Shown one piece after another: positions 3,286-47,900 of a stretch of 64,000 bases of DNA. Position 1 is the stretch's first letter. The number at the start of each line of letters is the position of its first letter. Origin of the DNA: Asaia bogorensis (lineage in GTDB: Bacteria; Pseudomonadota; Alphaproteobacteria; Acetobacterales; Acetobacteraceae); contig CALQTN020000018.1 in the NCBI GenBank assembly GCA_943333505.2, positions 1-64,000 on the forward strand, written 5' to 3'. The notes below the pieces were generated by a model that worked only from the letters and a program-made list of their open reading frames with translations, was not told the DNA's origin and searched no databases. The position numbers and the translations under genes were made by a program.

Positions 3286-3389
3286 TGTTTGAAGGTGTGG
3301 CAGGCGTTAATCCCAGCCTTCGGACCGCAAGTTTCACTTCATCAGTCGCATGGATCGTCGCCCGACCAAGCTAAAATCAACCAGTGGAT

Positions 3390-3434
3390 GATTTTTTTTG
3401 GTTTTTTTGTTCACAAAAAGAACATCTTACTTCC
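3390..3434. repeat. A/T-rich palindromic intergenic repeat, single arm
   Basis: A T-run, then a hairpin made of T-rich and A-rich halves around GTTCAC, ending in AAGAACATCTTACTTCC. It is one arm of the composite element seen complete at 12930-13086 and 18216-18370. It abuts and slightly overlaps the stop codon of the enoyl-CoA hydratase gene (3427). Confidence 0.8.
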
Positions 3435-4206
3435 CTGTAAACCGAGGCTTCCGCTTCTCCCGGAACGCCGCCACGCCTTCCCGATGATCGTCGCTCGCCT
3501 GCAACGAAGGCTGCACAAATGCCTCATACTCCAGATAATCCTCCATGCTCGGCGCACTCGCCACATGGAATAATTTCTTCGAAAGCCCGAGCGCAAAGGT
3601 CGGCCCCTCGGCCATTTCAGCCGCCATCGCGTTTGCGCGATCCATCAGTTCGGCATCGGGATAAACATGATTGACCAGCCCGAGCGATTTGGCCTCGGCG
3701 GCATCGATCACCCGGCCGGTGAACACCAGTTCCTTGGCGATATTGAGCGGCAGGCGGCGTGCCAGATACCAGATGCCGCCGCCGTCGGGCGCCAAACCGA
3801 TGCGACGGAAGGTCTGGCCAAACTTGGCGGTATCGGATGCCAGCATGATGTCGCAGCCCAGTGCCAGCGACATGCCAATGCCCACCGCATGGCCGCGCAC
3901 CGCCGCGATCACCGGTTTTTCCAGCGAATGCAGCAGCCGCATATAGACGTGGCTGAGGCTTTGCAGCCGCGCCCGCCCGGCGGGTAGGCCGGTATCGCGC
4001 CCGGCCATCTTGTCGACATCCGCACCGGCGCAAAAGCTGGTGCCGGCACCCGTCAGGATCACCGCGCGGATGGCGGTGTCAAAACGGATGGCCTCAAACG
4101 CCGCGATCAGGCCCTGGCGCATTTCGGCGGTCAGCGCGTTCATTTTCTCGGGGCGGTTGATGGTAACAGTGGCGACGGCGCCGTTGATGTCGGTGGTGAT
4201 GTTCAT
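3427..4206 (-). CDS. Enoyl-CoA hydratase/isomerase family protein
   Basis: A 259-residue crotonase-fold protein. The opening VATVTINRPEKMNALT, the oxyanion-hole segments GTSFCAGADVDKM and AAVRGHAVGIGMSLALGCD, and a C-terminal FREKRKPRF are typical of the family. These enzymes hydrate trans-2-enoyl-CoAs or act on related CoA thioesters. The catalytic glutamates of true hydratases are not both obvious, so isomerase or another crotonase activity is possible. It lies between two repeats and reads in the same direction as the dehydrogenase at 2318, but the 194-bp gap with repeats argues against a tight operon. Confidence 0.85.
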   Translation of the reverse strand: MNITTDINGAVATVTINRPEKMNALTAEMRQGLIAAFEAIRFDTAIRAVILTGAGTSFCAGADVDKMAGRDTGLPAGRARLQSLSHVYMRLLHSLEKPVIAAVRGHAVGIGMSLALGCDIMLASDTAKFGQTFRRIGLAPDGGGIWYLARRLPLNIAKELVFTGRVIDAAEAKSLGLVNHVYPDAELMDRANAMAAEMAEGPTFALGLSKKLFHVASAPSMEDYLEYEAFVQPSLQASDDHREGVAAFREKRKPRFTGK

Positions 4207-4247: not shown

Positions 4248-4340
4248 TCCGTGCCGTTGGCGCAGTCCCACGCCAACGGCTCCAAAGTGGGACGTTTTTT
4301 GCTTCTTTTTAGTCACAAAAAGAAGACCTTCCTTCCCCTT
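4248..4340. repeat. A/T-rich composite repeat with GC-rich centre (partial)
   Basis: Contains the GC-rich centre (GCCGTTGGCG and ACGCCAACGG as inverted halves) followed by the right A/T-rich arm, GTTTTTTGCTTCTTTTT then CACAAAAAGAAGACC. The left arm is missing. It fills the gap between the hydratase start and the serine hydrolase stop. Confidence 0.78.
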
Positions 4341-12198: not shown

Positions 12199-12924
12199 AT
12201 GACCGGAATGCATATGACCGATTGGGATCGTGACGCCGCGCTGACCACGGCCCGGATCCTGTTGGAGATCAAGGCGGTCAATTTCCGCCCTGAAGAACCT
12301 TATACTTTCACCTCGGGTTGGAAGTCACCCGTCTATATCGATTGCCGCCGCACCATCTATTTCCCACGCGCCCGGTCCAAGATTATGGATATGGCGGTCG
12401 AGAAGGTAGACCGCCATATCGGTTTTGAAACCATCGAGGCGGTGGCCGGTGGCGAAACCGCGGGCATTCCCTTCGCGGCCTGGATGGCGGACCGCATGAA
12501 TGCGCCGATGGCCTATGTGCGCAAAAAGCCCAAAGGCTTCGGCCGTGATGCCTTGATCGAGGGCGATGTGCCAGAGGGCAAGCGGACTTTGCTGGTCGAA
12601 GACCTTACGACCGATGGCGGCAGCAAGGTGCAGTTCTGCCAGGCGCTGCGGGATGCCGGGGCGATCTGCGACCACACGTTCGTGGTGTTCTTCTATGGGG
12701 TGTTTCCGGGTGGTGCGGATATCCTGAAGAAGATCGACCTCAAGCTGCACTATCTGGCGACCTGGTGGGACGTGCTGGAAGCCTGCCGTGAACGGCCCTA
12801 TTTTTCGGAAAGCGCGCTGTCGGAAGTGCGGAAATTCCTGGAAAACCCGGTTGCGTGGTCAAAGGCGCATGGTGGGGTGGGCAGCGTGGAAGAAGCTGCT
12901 GCGTGGAAGGCGGCCAAGGTTTAG
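12199..12924 (+). CDS. pyrE: Orotate phosphoribosyltransferase PyrE
   Basis: A 241-residue type I phosphoribosyltransferase. PyrE joins orotate to PRPP to give OMP in pyrimidine synthesis. The N-terminal segment FTSGWKSPVYIDCRRTIYF and the PRPP-binding motif LLVEDLTTDGGSK identify it clearly. It also has the alphaproteobacterial long form with GGETAGIPFAAW and a C-terminal extension. GAGAG precedes the ATG at 12199; a second in-frame ATG at 12214 is possible. The gene is followed directly by a composite repeat. Confidence 0.95.
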   Translation: MTGMHMTDWDRDAALTTARILLEIKAVNFRPEEPYTFTSGWKSPVYIDCRRTIYFPRARSKIMDMAVEKVDRHIGFETIEAVAGGETAGIPFAAWMADRMNAPMAYVRKKPKGFGRDALIEGDVPEGKRTLLVEDLTTDGGSKVQFCQALRDAGAICDHTFVVFFYGVFPGGADILKKIDLKLHYLATWWDVLEACRERPYFSESALSEVRKFLENPVAWSKAHGGVGSVEEAAAWKAAKV

Positions 12925-12929
12925 GATTG

Positions 12930-13086
12930 CACGGAAGCGTTTTCTTGGTTTGAAACCAAAGAAGCAAAAAAACGCGCTCAATTGTTGCCGCTGGCTCGGG
13001 TCCCTCCGGTGTCCCACGCCAACGGCAACAAAGTGATGAAAAGTTTTTTTGGTTCTTTTTGTTCACAAAAAGAACATCTTACCTAC
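12930..13086. repeat. Composite near-palindromic A/T-rich intergenic element (complete copy)
   Basis: Three parts in about 157 bp. The left arm (12932-12972) has T-rich and A-rich halves (TTTTCTTGGTTTG, then AAACCAAAGAAGC). The GC-rich centre (about 12984-13029) has GCCGCTGGC and GCCAACGGC as inverted halves with GGGTCCC. The right arm (13038-13084) has AAGTTTTTTTGG, TTCTTTTTGTTCACAAAAAG and AACATCTTACC. The arms are roughly inverted copies of each other, so the whole can fold on itself. It fills the gap between pyrE and the carotenoid oxygenase gene. Confidence 0.85.
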
Positions 13087-13106: not shown

Positions 13107-14657
13107 ATGGACCACGATCTGCGCCACGCCCTGACCGACCTGCCGATAACCCGCGCCAATGTGCGGCTGCTGGCGCCCGACGGCACGCCGCCGCCCGATG
13201 CGCCGGACTGGATCTGGGGCACAGATCACCCGTATCTCCACGGTTGGTTCGCCCCCACGGCGCGCGAATACGATGCCGATAATCTGGTGATCGAAGGCAC
13301 CCTGCCGGCCGATCTCTATGGCGCCTACGTGATGAACGGGCCATCGCAACGCTTCACCCCGGCCAATCGCTATCATTATTATGATGGCGATGCGATGCTG
13401 CGAGCGATCTATTTCCGCGATGGAAAGGCATCTTTCCGCCAGCGCTGGATCAGGAACGAGGCGTTCACCGTCGAAAACATCGCCGGCAAATCGATCTGGC
13501 CGGGCCTTGCAGGTCCCTATAACCCGATGCTGCCGGGATCGCCGATCAAGGATTCGTCCAACACCGACGTGATCTTCTACAACGGCAAGCTGTTGAGCCT
13601 GTGGTACATGGCCGGCCAGCCCTACGAGATCGACCCGGTTACCCTCGAAACCAAGGGGCGCGAGAAATTCGGCGGCCAGCTCAACCACAGCCTGTCAGCG
13701 CACAGCAAAGTTGATCCGCGCACCGGCGAATTGTTCTTCTTCACCTATGGCAATGAAGCCCCGTACATGCGCTACGGCGTGGCCAGCGCCGATGGCAAAT
13801 TGCTGCATGATGTGCCGATCGACATCCCCGGCCCGCGCTCCCCGCACGACATGGGCCTGAGCGCCAATTACTGCGTGCTGCACGATCTCCCGCTATTCCA
13901 GGATGCCGATCTTCTGGCGCGCGAAAACCGCCGGGTGATCCGCTTCCACCGTGACGTTCCGGCCCGTTTCGGGGTGATCCCACGCTACGGCAGCAGCAAG
14001 GATGTGCGTTGGTTCGAGGCCCAACCCTGCTACATCCTCCATATCGTCAACTGTTACGAGGAAGGCGACTGGCTGCACCAGATCGGCTGCCGCATCGCCA
14101 ATCCGGGCAGCAAGCTCGATCCGGTGGACGGCAAGCTGGCGGCCGCAATGTCCTACCGTCGGCGCATTCACGAGCTGTATCGCTGGTCGTTCAATCTGGT
14201 GACAGGGGACGTGCGCGAAGGGCCGATCGACGACCTCAACACCGAGTTCCCCCGGCTCAATCCGTGGCGCTTGGGACATAAATCGCGGCTTGCGTTCAAC
14301 CAGTATCTCCCGGTACCGGGCGAGGAAGGCCTGTCCGGCCGCTGCCAGACATTCGATGCGCTGGTGCGCTACGATACCGATACCGGCATGCGCCAACGCT
14401 TCGACTATGGTGAGGGCGTGTTTGGCGCGGAATCCCCGGTCGCCCCTAAGCGCGGTAGCACCCCGGATACGCCTGAAGACGCAGCTTATGTGGTGACCTT
14501 TACCACCGATACCAATAACTGGTCATCTTCCTGTCTGGTGTTTGATGCGGCTGATATTTCGCGTGGGCCGATCGCCAAGGTGCGCATTCCGCACCGTATT
14601 TCCGCAGGGTTTCATACCACTTGGGTGCCGGGGGAGCAGGTTTGGAATCAGGCGTAA
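13107..14657 (+). CDS. Carotenoid oxygenase (RPE65/carotenoid cleavage dioxygenase) family protein
   Basis: A 516-residue member of PF03055. These non-haem iron dioxygenases cleave double bonds of carotenoids, stilbenes such as lignostilbene, or related aromatics. Seven-bladed propeller segments with the likely iron histidines are visible: LSAHSKVDPRTGELFFFTYG, NYCVLHDLPLF, PCYILHIVNCYEE, and HTTWVPGEQ at the C-terminus. The early motif YVMNGPSQRFTP corresponds to the usual rNGPnP-like stretch. The ATG at 13107 has GGGGGAG eight bases upstream; the frame extends further up only through the repeat. Substrate unknown; lignostilbene- or apocarotenoid-type are both possible. Confidence 0.88.
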   Translation: MDHDLRHALTDLPITRANVRLLAPDGTPPPDAPDWIWGTDHPYLHGWFAPTAREYDADNLVIEGTLPADLYGAYVMNGPSQRFTPANRYHYYDGDAMLRAIYFRDGKASFRQRWIRNEAFTVENIAGKSIWPGLAGPYNPMLPGSPIKDSSNTDVIFYNGKLLSLWYMAGQPYEIDPVTLETKGREKFGGQLNHSLSAHSKVDPRTGELFFFTYGNEAPYMRYGVASADGKLLHDVPIDIPGPRSPHDMGLSANYCVLHDLPLFQDADLLARENRRVIRFHRDVPARFGVIPRYGSSKDVRWFEAQPCYILHIVNCYEEGDWLHQIGCRIANPGSKLDPVDGKLAAAMSYRRRIHELYRWSFNLVTGDVREGPIDDLNTEFPRLNPWRLGHKSRLAFNQYLPVPGEEGLSGRCQTFDALVRYDTDTGMRQRFDYGEGVFGAESPVAPKRGSTPDTPEDAAYVVTFTTDTNNWSSSCLVFDAADISRGPIAKVRIPHRISAGFHTTWVPGEQVWNQA

Positions 14658-14663
14658 GGGGTA

Positions 14664-14780
14664 GAAAGGTCTTCTTTGTTTGAAAACAACGAAGCAAAAA
14701 AACTTCAATGATTTATTGCCTTTGGCTCGGGTCTGCTGAAGGAACCGCGCCAACGGCAATACGTCGTAATTTTTCTTGCC
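14664..14780. repeat. A/T-rich composite repeat, right arm decayed
   Basis: The left arm (AAAGGTCTTCTTTGTTTG, then AAAACAACGAAGC) and the GC-rich centre (TTGCCTTTGGCTCGGGTC and CGCGCCAACGGCAA) are recognisable; the right arm has decayed to TAATTTTTCTTGCC. It starts seven bases after the carotenoid oxygenase stop. Confidence 0.75.
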
Positions 14781-14836
14781 AATCCCGATGAAGTCTCTAG
14801 CATCCTCTCAAAATCACGGCCCCAGGGAGGTTCACC

Positions 14837-16051
14837 ATGAAGTTCGGTGTATTCTACGAAATGCAGCTGCCGCGTCCCTGGGGCGTGGATGACGAGCGCC
14901 AGCTTTACCAGAACGCGCTCACCCAGGTCGAACTCGCCGACAAGCTGGGCTATGATTATGCGTGGCAGGTGGAACACCACTTCCTGGAAGAATATTCGCA
15001 CTCCCCACAACCTGAGGTGTTTCTGGCCGCGGCCAGTCAGCGGACCAAGAACATCCGCATCGGCCACGGCATCATCCAGCTCACCACCAACCATCCCGCC
15101 CGTGTGGCCGAAAAGATCGCCACGCTTGATCTGGTCAGCAATGGCCGGGTTGAATTCGGCATGGGCGAGGGTGGCAGCATTACCGAAATCGGCCCGTTCG
15201 ACCGCCAGATGGAAGACAAGCGGGCGATCTGGGAAGACGCGGTGCGCTGTATCATGCCGATGTTCAAGGATGGTGGCACCGAATACGAGGGCCCGTTCTT
15301 CAAGTTTCCGCTGCGCAACGTGCTGCCTAAGCCGGTGCAGAAACCGCACCCGCCGCTCTGGGTCGCGTGTTCCCAGCTTGAAACCATCGAAATGGCCGGT
15401 CGCCGCGGCATTGGCGCGCTGGGCTTCCAGTTCCTGTCGGCCGATATGGCGCATGCCTGGGTGCATGCCTATTACAACGCGTTCGTGAAACGCCAGCAGA
15501 AACTCGCCGACTACGCGTCCAATCCCAATATCGCCATGGTCAGCTACTTCATGTGCGCCGAAACCGATGAGGAAGCCCGCCGTCGCGCCGATGGGGTAAC
15601 ATTCTTCCAGTTCTCGCTCGCCTATTACAGCGGCTCGCAAAACCGTATGCGCCCGCCGCCGGGCACCGTCAGCATCTGGGACGAATACCAGAAATGGAAG
15701 AAGGCCAACCCCGAAGCCGCCGACAAGGCGCTGCGTGGCGGCCTGATCGGATCACCAGCGACGATCCGCGCCAAGCTGCACAAATTCGCGGAATCCAAGG
15801 TCGACAGCATCATTCTGCTCAACCAGGCCGGGCGCAACACCCATGAACACATCTGCGAAAGCCTGGATTTGTTCGCGCGCGAAGTGATGCCGGAATTCCA
15901 TGCGATGGAACCCGAGCATCAGGCCTGGAAGGCGAAAGTGCTCAGCCGCGAGATCGAACTCGACGAACTCGATACCGAGGCGTTCAAAGTGCGCCAGGGC
16001 CTGGGCAAGGGCGTCGCGATCGATCGGCTGGTGGCAGCGGCGGGGGACTAG
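14837..16051 (+). CDS. LLM-class (luciferase-like) flavin-dependent oxidoreductase
   Basis: A 404-residue bacterial-luciferase-like monooxygenase (PF00296). MKFGVFYEMQLPRPW is the first barrel strand, AWQVEHHFLEEYS holds the conserved histidine pair, and IGHGIIQLTTNHPARVAEKI with GRVEFGMGEGGS are the flavin-site strands. Family members use FMNH2 (or F420) with O2 to oxidise small molecules; the partner reductase and substrate are not visible here. AGGGAGG lies just ahead of the ATG. Its TAG stop codon is the first three bases of the tandem repeat that follows. A second LLM enzyme of a different subfamily is at 18369. Confidence 0.85.
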   Translation: MKFGVFYEMQLPRPWGVDDERQLYQNALTQVELADKLGYDYAWQVEHHFLEEYSHSPQPEVFLAAASQRTKNIRIGHGIIQLTTNHPARVAEKIATLDLVSNGRVEFGMGEGGSITEIGPFDRQMEDKRAIWEDAVRCIMPMFKDGGTEYEGPFFKFPLRNVLPKPVQKPHPPLWVACSQLETIEMAGRRGIGALGFQFLSADMAHAWVHAYYNAFVKRQQKLADYASNPNIAMVSYFMCAETDEEARRRADGVTFFQFSLAYYSGSQNRMRPPPGTVSIWDEYQKWKKANPEAADKALRGGLIGSPATIRAKLHKFAESKVDSIILLNQAGRNTHEHICESLDLFAREVMPEFHAMEPEHQAWKAKVLSREIELDELDTEAFKVRQGLGKGVAIDRLVAAAGD

Positions 16052-16240
16052 ATCATCATTCGTTCAATCGGCTTCGATTGGACGGATAAAGATGATCGTG
16101 AAAACAAGACACTAGATCATCATTCGTTCAATCGGCTTCGATTGGACGGATAAAGATGATCGTGAAAACAAGACACTAGATCATCATCCGTTCAATCGGC
16201 TTTGATTGGACGGATAAAGATGATCGATAAAACAAGACTC
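16049..16240. repeat. Three tandem copies of a 64-bp hairpin-forming unit
   Basis: Units start at 16049, 16113 and 16177 and differ by only a few bases. Each contains the perfect hairpin CAATCG-GCTT-CGATTG (the third copy has a mismatch) within a longer imperfect stem GATCATC...GATGATC, followed by GAAAACAAGAC. Unit borders are CTAG. A single inverted copy is at 51214-51280 and a diverged copy at 57573-57623. There are no unique spacers, so this is not CRISPR. Confidence 0.92.
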
Positions 16241-16253
16241 TAGATCGGGCGGG

Positions 16254-17510: not shown

Positions 17511-18194
17511 CTAACCCTCATTCACGGCCACAAGTGCCACGTCGAGCAGGCGTTCGATGACCTCGGCATCCTGCGCGCCGGCGATGGCATGGCGGCCGTC
17601 GATGACCAGACACGGGACGCCATTGATACCGAGCCGATGGGCGCGAAGATTATCGGCATGCACGATCTCGGCATCGGTGTCGCCGTTGAGCCACATATAG
17701 GCCGCGTCTGCCTCCAGCCCGCAGGCGCCGGCAATCCGGGCGAGGGTTCGTTGATCGCCAATATCCAGGCCCTCGGTGAAATGGGCGCGAAACACCGCGT
17801 TGGCGATCGCAGTGCCGCTATTCTGAAGGCTCGCCCAGCGCACCAGCCGATGGGCATCGACCGATGACGGCGTGCGCACGATACGGTCAAAACGGAAATC
17901 GATTCCCTCCGCCCGACCGATATCGCTGATCGAGGCATAGAGCCGGCGGGCGCGATCCTCACCGCCGAACTTGCGCAACACGTAGTCATCGCGCGCCATG
18001 CCGCTGCGTGGCATGTCGGGATTGAGCAGGAAAGGCCGCCAGAGCAACTCGGCCGAAATATCCGGGCGGCGCGCCAGGGTGCGGGCGAGGCGGCGCACCC
18101 CGAGATAGCACCACGGGCAGACGAGATCGTGCACGACCTCAATGACGAGGTTTGCGCGGGAGGGAGACGGGTCATGCGGGACGTGGATGTTCAC
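17511..18194 (-). CDS. FrnE-like DsbA-family oxidoreductase
   Basis: About 227 residues with a thioredoxin fold. The segment EVVHDLVCPWCYLGVRRL holds the CPWC active site of the FrnE/polyketide-isomerase branch of DsbA proteins. Also present are the helical insertion and the late cis-proline loop NGVPCLVIDGRHAIAGAQ. No signal peptide is seen, so it should act in the cytoplasm, as FrnE proteins do, for example in oxidative-stress disulfide handling or 2-hydroxychromene-2-carboxylate-type isomerisation. The start is uncertain: GTG 18194 is used because the upstream frame runs into the repeat at 18216. 223 bp separate it from dsbB; I saw nothing else in that gap. Confidence 0.8.
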   Translation of the reverse strand: MNIHVPHDPSPSRANLVIEVVHDLVCPWCYLGVRRLARTLARRPDISAELLWRPFLLNPDMPRSGMARDDYVLRKFGGEDRARRLYASISDIGRAEGIDFRFDRIVRTPSSVDAHRLVRWASLQNSGTAIANAVFRAHFTEGLDIGDQRTLARIAGACGLEADAAYMWLNGDTDAEIVHADNLRAHRLGINGVPCLVIDGRHAIAGAQDAEVIERLLDVALVAVNEG

Positions 18195-18215: not shown

Positions 18216-18370
18216 GGGAGGGAAGGTGTTCTTTTTGTGAACAAAAAGAACCAAAAAAACGTTCTTTCAAGTGTGGCCGTTGGCTCGGGTCCCTCCATGG
18301 TCCCACGCCAACGGCAACAAAGTTGGAAGTTTTTTTGCTTCTTTGTTTTCAAACAAAGAAGACCTTGCTT
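18216..18370. repeat. Composite near-palindromic A/T-rich intergenic element (complete copy)
   Basis: Left arm GGGAGGGAAGGTG, then TTCTTTTTGTGAACAAAAAG (18229-18248) and a run of A; GC-rich centre with GGCCGTTGGCTCGGGTCCC and TCCCACGCCAACGG; right arm AAGTTTTTTTGC, then TTCTTTGTTTTC and AAACAAAGAAGACC. Same design as 12930-13086. It ends at the stop codon of the LLM gene and begins just upstream of the FrnE-like gene. Confidence 0.87.
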
Positions 18371-19529
18371 AACCTGCCTTAGCAGCCTGATATCGCTGAA
18401 TTTCAGCCTCCACCGCCTTGGCCGAAGCAATCCCATAAGTCCCATGGCTCGCGGTCGCCGTATCGTAGCTCCGCACCCGCAACCCATTGGACTGGCGCTG
18501 GAAATGCGGATGGACATAACGCGCCATCAATTCGTAGCTGCGTTTGGTCGCCTCCCAATCCGCCCAGTTATGCGCCAGTTGCAATATCGCCCCCATGCCG
18601 CCTTGCGAGCCCTGCCAGAGCCGTTCGAAATGGGCGATGCAGTCATCGGGGGTGCCGATGCAGGCGATGCCGTTTTCGGTCAGGAAGTCGAGCGGGTTTT
18701 CGATGCCCGGCGGAATGATCGGGAAGGTGGCGACGTCGGTGAAGTATTTGCAGTAATCGGCGAGACCATAGGCGACCTCGGCGCGGGCCTGTTCCCGGGT
18801 TGGCGCGATATGGCAGAAATTGACGATGCGCCATTTGCTGCGGTCCACGGCCTTGCCGGCGGTCTGCGCGCTTTCGGTATAGACGCCCCAGTTCGACGCG
18901 TGCTGGGCGAGTGCGTCGTCCGATGTGCCACCGATCGACAGCATGCCGATGCCGTGCCGACCGGCGGCGAGCGCACCGCTTGGCGACCGCGCGCAGGCCA
19001 CCGCCATTTCCATCATCGGCTGGCTATAGGGTTTCAACTGCAACTGGGCATCGCGCAGATCGAACCACGGGGTTTTCATGTTGACCACGCCGCCTTGCAT
19101 CAAGGTCATGATCGCATCGAGGCTGTCATTCATCATTTTACGTTGATCGGCGGGGTCAAGCCCGATCTTTGCCGCATCATGCACCAGCGCGCCCGGTCCA
19201 ACGCCGAACATCGCCCGCCCGCGGGTCATGTGGTCGAGCTGCATCATCCGCGATGCCAGCATGAAGGGGTTGTGGTAGGGTAAGGATACCACGCCGGTGC
19301 CGAGCCGGATGTTTTTGGTGCGCTGGGCGGCGGCGGCCAGGAACATTTCCGGGCAGGCGATAATCTCGAAGCCGCCGGAATGATGTTCGCCAACCCAGGC
19401 TTCGTGATAATTCAGCCGGTCGAGATGTTCGAGCAGCTCCATGTCGCGTTCGAGGGCGAGGGTGGGGTTTTCACCCATGGCGTGAAACGGCGCGAGGAAT
19501 ACGCCGGTGCGGAGGTAACGGTCTTCCAT
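18369..19529 (-). CDS. LLM-class flavin-dependent oxidoreductase
   Basis: A 386-residue luciferase-like enzyme with ERDMELLEHLDRLNYHEAWV at the first helix, GEHHSGGFEIIACPEMFLAA (conserved His pair), TKNIRLGTGVVSLPYHNPFM and MFGVGPGALVHDA. The C-terminal half is that of the limonene/alkane-monooxygenase-like subgroup. It probably takes FMNH2 from a separate reductase; the substrate is unknown. The ATG at 19529 has GGGAG seven bases upstream. An in-frame ATG at 19556 (MNPTIG) is the alternative. It is divergent from the SDR gene with 98 bp between. Confidence 0.84.
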   Translation of the reverse strand: MEDRYLRTGVFLAPFHAMGENPTLALERDMELLEHLDRLNYHEAWVGEHHSGGFEIIACPEMFLAAAAQRTKNIRLGTGVVSLPYHNPFMLASRMMQLDHMTRGRAMFGVGPGALVHDAAKIGLDPADQRKMMNDSLDAIMTLMQGGVVNMKTPWFDLRDAQLQLKPYSQPMMEMAVACARSPSGALAAGRHGIGMLSIGGTSDDALAQHASNWGVYTESAQTAGKAVDRSKWRIVNFCHIAPTREQARAEVAYGLADYCKYFTDVATFPIIPPGIENPLDFLTENGIACIGTPDDCIAHFERLWQGSQGGMGAILQLAHNWADWEATKRSYELMARYVHPHFQRQSNGLRVRSYDTATASHGTYGIASAKAVEAEIQRYQAAKAG

Positions 19530-25349: not shown

Positions 25350-25855
25350 CCCTGTGGTGGGAAATCGTTCGCGATACCTTGAAGCAGTCCGAGGTCAAGC
25401 TGGTGACCTATGTGCCCGACAACGTGCTGAACCCGTTGTTGAAGGCGATCCATGCTGACGACTACTTCAATGCCTTCGTCTGCACCCGCGAGGAAGAAGC
25501 CGTCGGCATTGTCGCCGGTGCCTGGATGGGCGGGATGCGCGGGGTGGTGATGATGCAGACTTCGGGGTTCGCCACTTTGCCGAACGTGCTGGCCTCGCTT
25601 GCGGTGCCGTATCAGATCCCGGTGCTGATGGTGGTCTCCGAACGCGGCACTTTGGGCGAGTTCAACATCGGCCAGGCGATGGTCGCCCGCACCATGCGCC
25701 CGGCGTTGGATGCAATGGGCATTGAACACCATACCCTGACCCGGCTGGATGAGGTCGGATTTATCGTTGAGCGCACCATCCGCCAGGCGGTGACCACCCA
25801 GCAACCGGCGTGTCTGATCCTGTCGCCATTGCTGACCGGGGGGAAGGCGCCATGA
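25346..25855 (+). CDS. ThDP-dependent decarboxylase, pyrimidine-binding (alpha) subunit, sulfopyruvate/phosphonopyruvate type
   Basis: About 169 residues corresponding to the N-terminal half of ThDP decarboxylases. VTYVPDNVLNPLL and VCTREEEAVGIVAGAWMGG (with the ThDP-activating glutamate) match ComD-like sulfopyruvate decarboxylase alpha subunits and the N-terminal domain of phosphonopyruvate decarboxylase. The start ATG overlaps the dehydrogenase stop, and its own stop overlaps the beta subunit start, so the three proteins are tightly coupled. The natural substrate could be sulfopyruvate, phosphonopyruvate or another 3-substituted pyruvate. Confidence 0.8.
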   Translation: MTLWWEIVRDTLKQSEVKLVTYVPDNVLNPLLKAIHADDYFNAFVCTREEEAVGIVAGAWMGGMRGVVMMQTSGFATLPNVLASLAVPYQIPVLMVVSERGTLGEFNIGQAMVARTMRPALDAMGIEHHTLTRLDEVGFIVERTIRQAVTTQQPACLILSPLLTGGKAP

Positions 25856-26457
25856 GAAACGAGACACTCACCCGCGATCAGGCCAAGGTGATGGGCCGGT
25901 TCGATATCACCAAGGCGCTGGTTGCCAGGTTGCACAAGGACGAAGCCGTGATTGGCGGCATTGGCCACACCAACTGGGACTTGTGGGCTTCTGGCCGCCG
26001 GCCGCAGAATTTCTACATGCTCGGCAGCATGGGTCTTGCGGTGCCGATTGCCATGGGGGTGGCGATCGCCCAGCCCGGCCGGAAAGTTTTTGCGCTCGAA
26101 GGCGATGGCTCGGTGCTGATGCAGCTTGGCGCGCTGGCGACGGTTGCCAATCGTGCGGTCGGCAATCTGTGCATCGTGATTATGGATAATGGCACCTACC
26201 AGATCACCGGCGGGCAGATGACCGCGACCGGGCAGGGGGCGGATATCGTGGCGATCGCGCGCGGCGCCGGCATCGCGCAGGCCGAATGGGCGCGCGACGC
26301 GGCGCATTTCGGCGCATTGATGGATCAGGCGTTGGTGACCGACGCGCCGATGCTGGTGGGGGTGCGCACCGATGATCAGAAACCGTTCGGGCAGACCGAG
26401 CGTGATCCGCCGCAGTTGCGGGATCGGTTTATGCGCGGGCTTGGGGTGAAGAAATAA
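25852..26457 (+). CDS. ThDP-dependent decarboxylase, pyrophosphate-binding (beta) subunit
   Basis: A 201-residue C-terminal half of a ThDP decarboxylase. The diphosphate/Mg motif runs from ALEGDGSVLMQLGALATVA to CIVIMDNGTYQITGG (GDG ... about 25 residues ... DN). FYMLGSMGLAVPIAMGVAIA is the preceding conserved strand and helix. It pairs with the alpha subunit through a four-base ATGA overlap. Sulfopyruvate decarboxylase of methanogens is split in the same way (ComD/ComE); in many bacteria the halves are fused. The gene ends one base before a composite repeat. Confidence 0.82.
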   Translation: MRNETLTRDQAKVMGRFDITKALVARLHKDEAVIGGIGHTNWDLWASGRRPQNFYMLGSMGLAVPIAMGVAIAQPGRKVFALEGDGSVLMQLGALATVANRAVGNLCIVIMDNGTYQITGGQMTATGQGADIVAIARGAGIAQAEWARDAAHFGALMDQALVTDAPMLVGVRTDDQKPFGQTERDPPQLRDRFMRGLGVKK

Positions 26458-26600
26458 GGGGAGGGAAGGTCTTCTTTTTGTGAACAAAAAGAAGCAAAAA
26501 AACTTTCCTGCTTTGGTTCTGTGTTCGCATCGGCCACGGCGCACTATTATCAAAAAGTTTTTTTGGTTTTTTTTGTTCACAAAAAGAACTGCTTGGCTTC
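26458..26600. repeat. A/T-rich composite repeat with both arms and an altered centre
   Basis: Left arm GGGAGGGAAGGTC, then TTCTTTTTGTGAACAAAAAG (26471-26490) and AAGCAAAAAAAC; right arm AAAAGTTTTTTTGG, then GTTCACAAAAAGAAC. The centre differs from the usual one (CTTTGGTTCTGTG, then CGGCCACGGCG), so it has decayed or been replaced. It follows the beta subunit stop and precedes the hydratase start. Confidence 0.82.
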
Positions 26601-26613
26601 CCTGGAGATGCTG

Positions 26614-27399
26614 ATGAGCCTCATTCTTGTGTCTATCGAAAACCAAATCGCCCGAGTAACCATCAACCGCCCCGAAAAGCTCAACGCGATGAACTCGCCG
26701 TTGATCAGCGAATTTGTCGCCGTATTTGCAACTCTTGCCACGGACCCCGATCTCCGCGCGGTGGTGCTAACCGGCGCCGGCCCAAAAAGCTTCGTGGGCG
26801 GCGCGGATATTGCCGAAATGGGCGCAATCGAAACCCCGGCCCAGGCGCGCGCCTTCATCACCAGCGTGCATCGCTGCTGCGACGCGGTGCGAACCCTGCC
26901 AGTGCCGGTGATCGCCCGCATCCAGGGGTTTTGTTTCGGTGCCGGGCTCGAACTCGCGGCCGCCTGCGATTTGCGGGTGGCGGCTGACAGCGCCAGCTTC
27001 GGGATGCAGGAGGTCAAGCTCGGCATTCCCAGCGTGATCGAGGCGGCATTACTGCCCGGCCTGGTCGGGTGGGGCCGGACGCGGGAGATGTTGCTGCTGG
27101 GTGAAACCTTCTCGGCGGCCGACGCGGCGCGGTGGAATTTGGTGGAGCGGGTCGTGGCGGATGCCGATCTTGATGCCGCGGTCGCGGATTGGCTGGGCAA
27201 ATTGCTCACCAGCACGCCGCTCGCAGTGCGGAGCCAGAAGGCGCTGATGCGGCGTTGGGAGAAGCTGCCATTGGCCGAGGCGATCCAGGCTGGCATCGAC
27301 AGTTTCGCCCAAGCCTTCGACAGCGACGAGCCGAAACGGGCGCTCGGCCACTTCCTCGCCGAGGCCGACGTGCGCCGGGCACAGAAACATGGCGTTTGA
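26614..27399 (+). CDS. Enoyl-CoA hydratase
   Basis: A 261-residue crotonase-fold protein with ARVTINRPEKLNAMN, the first oxyanion segment KSFVGGADIAEM, and the second with catalytic-type residues PVIARIQGFCFGAGLELAAA and CDLRVAADSASFGMQEVKLG. The E in GLELAA and the following E in QEVKLGIPS fit a true hydratase better than the other two crotonases in this window. ATG 26614 is preferred because GGAG lies about six bases upstream; an ATG at 26608 is the alternative. It overlaps the MaoC gene by 11 bp, so beta-oxidation-like work is likely. Confidence 0.87.
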   Translation: MSLILVSIENQIARVTINRPEKLNAMNSPLISEFVAVFATLATDPDLRAVVLTGAGPKSFVGGADIAEMGAIETPAQARAFITSVHRCCDAVRTLPVPVIARIQGFCFGAGLELAAACDLRVAADSASFGMQEVKLGIPSVIEAALLPGLVGWGRTREMLLLGETFSAADAARWNLVERVVADADLDAAVADWLGKLLTSTPLAVRSQKALMRRWEKLPLAEAIQAGIDSFAQAFDSDEPKRALGHFLAEADVRRAQKHGV

Positions 27400-29826: not shown

Positions 29827-29872
29827 AGGAGGGTCTTCTTTTTGTTCACAAAAAGAAGAGCTTCCTTCCCTA
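29827..29872. repeat. A/T-rich palindromic repeat arm between divergent erpA and dgt
   Basis: GGAGGGTC, TTCTTTTTGTTCACAAAAAG and AAGAGCTTCCTTCCC form a single-arm hairpin. Unlike the other copies it lies between two gene starts, so it is not only a 3'-end element. Confidence 0.8.
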
Positions 29873-33770: not shown

Positions 33771-33822
33771 AGCTCGGAAGTTTTTTTGTTTCTTTGTTTT
33801 CGAACAAAGAAGACCTTACTGA
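33771..33822. repeat. A/T-rich palindromic repeat between convergent genes
   Basis: GGAAGTTTTTTTG, then TTCTTTGTTTTCGAACAAAG and AAGACCTTAC. It is a right-arm type copy, with a trace of the centre (GGCAACAG) on its left. It abuts the stop of the SDR gene. Confidence 0.8.
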
Positions 33823-35582: not shown

Positions 35583-35689
35583 TTAGAGCGTGATGACCGT
35601 AGGTGGAATCACACGAAGGTCTGAATCACGCGACTAAACAAAGAACTAGAGCGTGATGGTCGCGCCTATCAGCGGCCATCACGCTCTAG
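35583..35689. repeat. Two joined CTAG-bordered repeat modules
   Basis: Module 1 (about 35583-35649) begins TAGAGCGTGATGACCGTAGG and continues AATCACACGAAGGTCTGAAT; its inverted counterpart is at 52913-52967. Module 2 (35646-35689) is a palindrome with 14-bp arms CTAGAGCGTGATGG and CCATCACGCTCTAG around a 16-bp loop. The modules share the CTAG at 35646. Located between the convergent crotonase and GNAT genes. Confidence 0.82.
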
Positions 35690-35775
35690 CTTTGATCGCC
35701 ATGAACGTGCGATGTATTTCGGCGTTCATGGCGGTTGTTTTTTGAGTTTGGTCGCAGGCTGGCGGCTGATTTCTT

Positions 35776-43435: not shown

Positions 43436-44317
43436 ATGCGCTGGATTTTGCTTGCTGTCGGCCTTGTCGTTGCCGCCTATCGGGCCGAGGCCGCCGTGGT
43501 CGTGACCTATTTTGGGCAATCACAATGGGATGCCTCGGATGCCACGCTGGGCATCGCCGGCTACGTGATTGAGGATTTCAACAGCACCAGCCTTGCCGCC
43601 GGCTTGCAGATCGCGCGCAGCGGCGCGGCCAGCGGCAACTTTATGGCGACTGGGACCTTGCCGGCGAGTTCAGTTTTCGATCCCAGCACCGACCCAACCC
43701 TCTATCTCGGCCAACCATTGCAGGCGTTTCTGCGGGGGCGTTGGGGCGGTGCCGGCGGCGTGCTGCTCAATCATCCCGGGCCTTCTTTTGTCGGCGACGC
43801 GGTCGATTGGTACACGGTGCCGAATTATTGGGCCGATGTGAGCTTCACGCTGCCGAGTAATACGATTTCGATCGGCTTCAGCCTCCAGCAGATGGAGGCG
43901 GCGGACAGTCTTTATGTCAATGGCGTTTTGTTCAACAGCAACCTTCTTGCCAGTCTGGGTTCGGACACTGAAACCCAGGCCGGGCTGACATTTTCCAGCC
44001 GCAATGGCTATCTGCGGCTGGATGCTACCGGGGGCGATACTATCGCCTCGTTCGGGCTTTCCAACGCCGGTACCGGCGATGGTTTTGCCATCGATCATCT
44101 GGCGTTCAGCAGCGTCGCAGTGGCCGAGCCAGGGACACTCGCGGTATTGGCGACCGGCCTAGTCGGGTTGCGACCTCGGTCCCGCCTGCGCAGGGTGTCG
44201 CGCCGAAGGCAACCAAGCATCAAAAGTTTTTTTGGTTCTTTTTGTTTACCAACAGAACGGCTTGTCTTATTGACTGCGCTCGACGTGGGGTTTGCTAAAA
44301 AAACAAGCACTTCCTAA
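43436..44317 (+). CDS. Secreted protein with a PEP-CTERM-like sorting signal, C-terminus changed by a repeat
   Basis: A 293-residue reading frame. A signal peptide (RWILLAVGLVVAAYRAEA) is followed by a beta-rich domain with a late FAIDHLAF segment, then AEPGTLAVLATGLVGL, which matches the PEP-CTERM signal (motif, helix) used by exosortase to anchor exported proteins. A normal signal ends in a short Arg cluster. Here the frame reads on from about 44175 through an intergenic repeat for some 45 codons (RPRSRLRRVSRRRQ, then SFFGSF). The tail is therefore probably not original. No exosortase gene is in the window. Function unknown; such proteins are often extracellular-matrix components. Confidence 0.72.
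   Translation: MRWILLAVGLVVAAYRAEAAVVVTYFGQSQWDASDATLGIAGYVIEDFNSTSLAAGLQIARSGAASGNFMATGTLPASSVFDPSTDPTLYLGQPLQAFLRGRWGGAGGVLLNHPGPSFVGDAVDWYTVPNYWADVSFTLPSNTISIGFSLQQMEAADSLYVNGVLFNSNLLASLGSDTETQAGLTFSSRNGYLRLDATGGDTIASFGLSNAGTGDGFAIDHLAFSSVAVAEPGTLAVLATGLVGLRPRSRLRRVSRRRQPSIKSFFGSFCLPTERLVLLTALDVGFAKKTSTS
44175..44265. repeat. Decayed A/T-rich composite repeat at the end of the PEP-CTERM gene
   Basis: Centre remnant (CCTCGGTCCCGCC, then GGGTGTCGCGCCGAAGGCAA) followed by an arm (AAAAGTTTTTTTGG, TTCTTTTTGTTTACC, AACAGAACGG). It overlaps the 3' part of the reading frame at 43436. Confidence 0.7.
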
Positions 44318-46921: not shown

Positions 46922-47848
46922 ATGCCCCGGCTCGATGAACAGGCTGCCGGCGTCTATATTATTTCGGTGACACCGTTCACCGATGCCGGGGCGCTTGACC
47001 TCGCCGGCACTGGCCGGCTGGTGGATTTCTATCTGGAGCGCGGCGCCACTGGCCTCACGATCCTTGGGATCATGGGCGAGGCGCCGAAATTATCTGCCGC
47101 CGAGTCGCTCGCTTTCACCCACGAGGTGCTGCGTTGCACCGCGGGCCGGGTGCCGGTCGTGGTCGGCGTATCAAGCCCCGGTTTCGCCGCGATGGGCGAG
47201 TTGTCGCGCGCTGTCATGGATGCGGGTGCCGCCGGGGTGATGGTCGCACCGCAGACCGCCGCGCGCACCGATGATGCGATTTACGGCTATTTCCGCATGG
47301 TGGTCGAAACCCTGGGCGATATTCCGTGGGTATTGCAGGATTATCCGATGGCATCAGGCGTGCAGATTTCGGTGCCGGTGATCCGCCGGGTGATAGAAAC
47401 CATGCCGAGCTGTGTGATGCTGAAGCATGAAGATTGGCCGGGTCTGGCGAAGCTGTCGGCGCTGCGCGCAATGACAGATTTGCGCCGCGTGTCGGTCCTG
47501 GTCGGCACGGGCGGATTATTCCTCCCCGAAGAACTGCGACGCGGTGCGGATGGCGCAATGACCGGGTTTTCCTATCCCGAAATGATGTCGGGGATCATCG
47601 CCGCCCATAAAGCTGGCGACGAACAGCGCGCCGCCGATATTTTCGACGCCTATCTGCCCCTGGTGCGCTACGAGCAACAGGCCAGCGCCGGTCTGGCGGT
47701 GCGCAAGCACATTCTGCACCAACGCGGCGCAATCGGATCGTCCGCGCAACGCCGCCCGGTTGTGGGGCTTTTGCCGGCGGATGTCGCTGATATTGAATTC
47801 TTGGTCGCCCGTCAGGCACGCCGCCTGAAAGCGCTCGGTCTTACTTAG
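46922..47848 (+). CDS. Dihydrodipicolinate synthase-family protein
   Basis: A 308-residue TIM-barrel aldolase/lyase of the DapA/NanA family. The Schiff-base lysine is K168 in CVMLKHEDWPG and the active-site tyrosine is Y141 in LQDYPMASG. The G-[TI]-x-GE motif is ILGIMGEAPKL (positions 48-56), altered from the GTTGE of true DapA, so it is probably a catabolic aldolase or dehydratase acting on a 2-oxo acid. It runs toward the class III aminotransferase and amidase genes; a repeat separates them. Confidence 0.85.
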   Translation: MPRLDEQAAGVYIISVTPFTDAGALDLAGTGRLVDFYLERGATGLTILGIMGEAPKLSAAESLAFTHEVLRCTAGRVPVVVGVSSPGFAAMGELSRAVMDAGAAGVMVAPQTAARTDDAIYGYFRMVVETLGDIPWVLQDYPMASGVQISVPVIRRVIETMPSCVMLKHEDWPGLAKLSALRAMTDLRRVSVLVGTGGLFLPEELRRGADGAMTGFSYPEMMSGIIAAHKAGDEQRAADIFDAYLPLVRYEQQASAGLAVRKHILHQRGAIGSSAQRRPVVGLLPADVADIEFLVARQARRLKALGLT

Positions 47849-47849
47849 T

Positions 47850-47900
47850 ATCGAAAAGTTTTTTGCTTCTTTTTTTCAAAAAAGAAGACCTACCTTCCTT
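47850..47900. repeat. A/T-rich palindromic repeat arm
   Basis: CGAAAAGTTTTTTGC, TTCTTTTTTTCAAAAAAGAA and GACCTACCTTCC. Single right-arm copy, directly after the DapA-like stop and before the aminotransferase ribosome binding region. Confidence 0.78.

Follow-up and report, generated by a model that had tools for sequence, protein, structure and literature searches.

Results

Composite palindromic repeats in the window

The region analysed (the window) is a stretch of 64,000 nucleotides on contig 18 of a 4.52 Mb genome in 151 contigs (G000). Two complete copies of a composite repeat lie between tandem genes, at 12930-13086 (+ strand; between + genes 12199-12924 and 13107-14657) and at 18216-18370 (− strand; between − genes 18369-19529 and 17511-18194). 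Among the neighbouring genes in the window, one for an enoyl-CoA hydratase lies behind one for a TPP enzyme, and one for a luciferase-like monooxygenase behind one for an RPE65-like dioxygenase. As an earlier note on this DNA had described, both copies follow one plan. Each begins with an AT-rich palindrome of 24 bp and the run C-A7-C; a GC-rich hairpin with a spacer on either side comes next, then G-T7-G and another palindrome of 24 bp. The two palindromes (arms) are of two types, alpha with G..C ends and TTTTTG on the loop side, and beta with C..G ends; the A7 or T7 run marks the inner side of each arm.

In the first composite, the left arm hairpin is a degenerate beta type (12940-12964, − strand). 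It is followed by the A7 run (12966-12972, +), which the model pairs with the T7 run at 13044-13050 (+), by the unstranded GC-rich central hairpin (12984-13029; centre class A, with GGGTCCC on its loop side), and by a right arm hairpin of alpha type (13052-13075, +). The second composite has an alpha arm hairpin at 18228-18251 (−), an unstranded GC-rich central hairpin at 18275-18318 and a beta arm hairpin at 18338-18361 (+). The inverted GGGTCCC centre, presented in the note as part of the plan, is present in copies of the repeat but is one centre type among several and does not define the family: the GC-rich hairpin between the arms is exchangeable, and the class B centre found at 26458-26600 is also common among congeners.

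Arm sequence was present at all eight further sites that had been listed as partial copies, and two of these were reclassified. The element at 26458-26600 (+; between tandem genes 25852-26457 and ~26605-27399) proved to be complete, with a centre of another kind; that at 29832-29858 (unstranded) is a single palindrome lacking an A or T run, which we read as a probable collapsed composite; its site is empty in the congener G002. Three others are single T-arms, all on the + strand: one at 3386-3430 adjoining the stop codon of the − gene 3427-4206, one at 33781-33815 between convergent genes, and one at 47853-47895, ~10 bp past the stop of gene 46922-47848. The remainder, also on the + strand, are a half element made of centre and right arm (4248-4335), a degraded composite with a good left and a decayed right arm (14664-14796), and the right half of a composite, consisting of half a centre and a decayed alpha arm (44175-44261).

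The note had estimated about ten copies in 64 kb. The arm pattern (≤3 mismatches) gave 11 matches in the window, as compared with none in 100 shuffles. Across the whole of G000 the same pattern gave 178 matches and its reversed control none. A covariance model, as the note had proposed, gave 145 matches genome-wide counting both strands, which were collapsed by hand to ~77 distinct composite places. No Rfam family matched in the window at the gathering score, a tRNA search gave no match, and the arm sequences were not found in open-licence full-text literature. These results confirm that the repeat family is real.

Other repeats were observed as well. A dispersed repeat of ~105 bp with inverted ends TTAGAGCGTGATG / CATCACGCTCTAG lies at 35583-35690 and has >35 copies of 89-94% identity; among the matches listed, all copies are in G000 and none in congeners. 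Three near-identical tandem units with inner palindromes (CTAGATCATCATTCGTTCAATCGG...) occupy 16048-16246, and occur elsewhere in G000 and at one place in G001. Many other contig ends carry positions 1-146 of the window at 99-100% identity; these bases probably belong to the end of an element whose many copies interrupted the assembly. At the start of contig C94 (L300 1-700), a ~314-bp unit containing a T-arm is tandemly duplicated.

Covariation supports three local hairpins in the composite

When 21 composites were compared under a three-hairpin structure, 90.3% of cells were paired. Cells changed on both sides numbered 40, against 19.7 in shuffles (0/500), and sliding the pairing partners destroyed this covariation signal. 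The cells are not independent events, because much of the signal is the contrast between alpha and beta arms. Compensated arm variants in other genomes, such as GCTCC..GGAGC in G002, also support hairpins. Taken together, the data support three local hairpins.

One long stem between the arms is disfavoured, its pair counts falling below those of its own shuffles. This is because composites of this genus nearly always combine an alpha with a beta arm (23 heterotypic against 2 homotypic, p about 1e-5); the same inter-arm counts would arise without selection if the arms formed two separate lineages. Heterotypy may reflect selection that keeps the arms from pairing with each other, or may only record an ancestral element whose ends were unlike. 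In other genera both arms are sometimes of one type, so heterotypy is not general. A four-way junction formed by pairing of the outer flanks was rejected, as 5.22 of 8 positions paired against 5.45 in shuffles, with no excess. Relative to the genes, alpha and beta arms are oriented about 21 to 6, a bias assessed by reading and not a rule.

Composites lie behind stop codons, mostly in tandem gene pairs

Gene context was assessed, with gene calls from a simple codon-usage script, in ~1.26 Mb of stretches, 0.98 Mb of which had been chosen irrespective of the elements. These contained 34 composites, 28 of them in tandem, three in convergent and two in divergent gaps, with one in an unknown context. 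Divergent gaps make up ~28% of intergenic bases, and a count of 2 in 33 composites is low (~0.002, by hand arithmetic). In tandem pairs the upstream stop lay at a median of ~6 bp from the composite and the next start at ~31 bp. The composites thus lie between genes and close to a stop, as the note had said of its copies; the half element at 44175-44261 overlaps the end of a weakly supported ORF. Loci from other genera, picked by the arm pattern and perhaps including a few from the window's own genus, showed a similar tendency, with 30 tandem, 17 convergent and 4 divergent.

This placement raises the question of whether the element is a lineage-specific bidirectional intrinsic terminator or attenuator, in which RNA polymerase would be stopped by the GC-rich hairpin and the T7 run behind it (A7 on the opposite strand) while the flanking AT hairpins protect 3' ends. 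The strong placement behind stops, the avoidance of divergent gaps and the symmetry of A7, GC-rich hairpin and T7 speak for this, and known bidirectional terminators share an A run, a GC-rich hairpin and a T run behind stop codons; in some other genera the stem abuts T7 (e.g. L131), and other palindromic repeats stand at the same 3' ends in congeners. In this genus, however, a poorly paired stretch separates the GC stem from T7, and a consensus scan for terminators misses the composites at 12930, 18216 and 26458. Known bidirectional terminators also differ in that they have no such stem-T7 spacer, outer AT hairpins, repeated sequence or species-level turnover. Folding energy favours the sense strand in only 11 of 28 cases (p=0.065 the other way), and selection on sense RNA was rejected for want of any sense preference. 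In most copies, placed as they are between tandem genes, the next start is ~30 bp away, which would leave little room for a promoter. We regard the terminator explanation as possible, and hold it tentatively at best.

Turnover at orthologous sites in congeners

About a dozen sites were compared with four congeners (G001-G004) at ~74-93% flank identity, contig ends hiding several of them. The site at 18216 carries a full composite in four species, being occupied also in G001, G003 and G004. At 26458, G004 has the same arms with a different centre, and at 12930 it has a composite with a different centre. The half element at 4248-4335 corresponds to a full composite with another centre in G004 and to an empty site in G003, and the degraded composite at 14664-14796 to a single palindrome in G004. 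At C23:29729 the element is full in G000, present as the right arm only in G001, represented by the left arm and another centre in G004, and empty, with a ~30-bp gap, in G002. C23:38320 holds a single palindrome in G000 and a full element in G004, and is empty in G002 and G003. At C2:82278 the composite of G002 differs in its left arm and centre, and G001 and G003 have an unrelated palindromic repeat. Arm sequence is nearly invariant at orthologous sites while centres diverge.

Pairs of occupied and empty sites, which the note had suggested looking for, are therefore found among congeners. Copies at fixed orthologous places with no size variation, which would have favoured plain terminators, are not the pattern seen among these congeners. 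Several sites are common to three or four species at 82-92% flank identity, so that movement there is not recent, and loss from an ancestral state could account for part of the presence/absence pattern.

In some single palindromes the A or T run is missing and each side is bordered by an end flank. Three such palindromes in G000, that at C23:38320 among them, have G..G mismatched ends, as would be expected if an alpha half had been joined to a beta half. Slippage or recombination between the arms would explain such collapse, because palindromic arms are also direct repeats of each other.

Some sites that hold a composite in G000 carry different palindromic repeats, CCCGGCCCTCTCCC... and GGGTGGAATGCG..., in G001 or G003 (L286, L289, L290); the same 3' ends thus hold several hairpin families.

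Search for a mobilising enzyme

The note had called for a search for a REP-associated tyrosine transposase (RAYT). No match to PF01797 (Y1_Tnp) was obtained in G000, the assembly of which is 96% complete, and no RAYT partner was thus found in this genome. Single weak Y1_Tnp matches in G001 and G002 have no arms beside them. Reading of ~1.5 Mb of G000 revealed no arm-flanked transposase. One segment on C61 (L299 2053-3852) has an A-arm and a T-arm around ~1.7-1.8 kb containing HTH-like and methyltransferase-like ORFs, named by reading their translations. It was rejected as an arm-flanked autonomous element, there being no recognisable transposase, and could be either a composite interrupted by acquired DNA or a pair of single arms. 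No clean target duplication was seen when empty sites were compared by eye, the congener flanks being too divergent to define one.

These results bear on whether the repeats are REPs, BIMEs or REPINs in the strict sense, or a classical MITE, moved by a RAYT or IS transposase that is encoded elsewhere or has been lost. Copy number, intergenic position, inverted palindromes of two types and mosaic structure are all as expected of such elements. BIMEs and REPs of enterobacteria and pseudomonads, including REPINs, are likewise high-copy intergenic palindromes, often in inverted pairs of two types with whole and half mosaics, and are frequent in 3' regions and between operon genes. Tagged REPs carry a GTAG or CGTC tetranucleotide at one palindrome end (PMC3733652). 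The arm consensus has no conserved GTAG or CGTC tag. The arms here are, moreover, AT-rich, and they enclose an exchangeable GC-rich centre with A7/T7 in a genome devoid of Y1_Tnp matches. MITEs with long terminal inverted repeats resemble the present elements in being ~150 bp long, dispersed and non-coding, with inverted termini and presence/absence between species. They differ in that here the termini are themselves palindromes, of two types that in this genus pair poorly with each other. We do not class the family as MITE, because the stretches read and the sites compared yielded neither a parent element nor a target duplication. Strict membership of either class is, on this evidence, improbable.

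Distribution across taxa

Arms were present in 20 of 120 genomes of the family, representing 16 of 102 genera, with up to 426 arms per genome; the rest had none at that threshold. The named carriers among the matches listed are Acetobacteraceae or Rhodospirillales, mostly MAGs, and include Acidiphilium, Acidocella and Rhodovastum, which places the window's own genome probably in the Acetobacteraceae. In a sample of 289 genomes from the class, 285 of which belong to other families, the only match was in the window's own genome. This patchiness, the empty, collapsed and centre-swapped sites among close relatives, and the compensatory changes that distinguish alpha from beta arms and leave no single conserved sequence make it very improbable that the element is a selected, immobile binding site for a nucleoid protein, gyrase, RNase or other factor acting on structured DNA or RNA, for which the near-invariance of arms beside diverging centres would speak.

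Osteras in 1995 (cited in PMC2873474) reportedly described RIME, Rhizobium-specific intergenic mosaic elements. By description alone, these are alike in being alphaproteobacterial intergenic mosaic palindromes; the present arm motif, in contrast, is absent from the 285 genomes of other alphaproteobacterial families.

The arm motif also occurs in gut MAGs labelled Rikenella, Rikenellaceae, Oscillospiraceae, Defluviitaleaceae and Ruminococcus, at 18 to 80 per genome (≤3 mismatches; reversed control 0). These five were chosen because they already had an exact arm match, and their labels (Bacteroidota and Firmicutes) are taken as given. Their arms (L064, L078, L084, L129, L138, L139, L324-L335) lie between genes, in several cases directly after a GC-rich hairpin, and have lineage-specific outer flanks. 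The arm might be one cross-phylum mobile hairpin, GTTTTTTTG[GC]TTC...GAA[GC], spread by an enzyme into Acetobacteraceae and gut Bacteroidota and Firmicutes and building lineage-specific composites behind genes; we consider this doubtful.

Discussion

The earlier note had proposed a MITE- or BIME-like mosaic family rather than chance terminators. Its BIME-like part is upheld: whole, half, centre-swapped, collapsed and empty orthologous sites occur in four congeners, and the repeat is patchily distributed within the bacterial family. High-copy intergenic palindromes in inverted pairs are a feature shared with REPs and BIMEs, and presence/absence at orthologous sites one shared with MITEs. Membership of the MITE or REP classes as such did not stand, given the lack of Y1_Tnp matches in G000 and of an arm-flanked transposase in the stretches read. 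The population is BIME/REPIN-like and fails two features of tagged REPs that were tested, the tag and the RAYT.

The mosaic turnover supports a BIME-like element over fixed terminators, to judge from the compared sequences. We therefore lean, with modest confidence, towards a non-autonomous, BIME-like palindromic mosaic repeat. Such an element may be spread or copied by an enzyme in the form of DNA that folds into hairpins. Loss of the centre through slippage or recombination between arms would then leave one palindrome, sometimes with G..G mismatched ends. Copies may persist behind stop codons where insertion is tolerated or targeted, and as a secondary effect they may, in either direction, weaken or shape the 3' ends of transcripts, short of acting as complete terminators. 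As a counterpoint to mobility, composites that fill gaps could reflect selection for a 3'-end function.

If a BIME-like mosaic repeat is the right reading, this genus would harbour a REP-like repeat population that lacks both a RAYT and the usual tag, a finding relevant to the ways in which such repeats spread. The formation of mosaics can be read from the centre swaps and from the collapsed palindromes whose ends are chimeric. The presence of the arm in gut genomes from other phyla raises the question of transfer or convergence. Since the composites stand ~6 bp behind stops within tandem gene pairs, their effects on operon expression can be tested.
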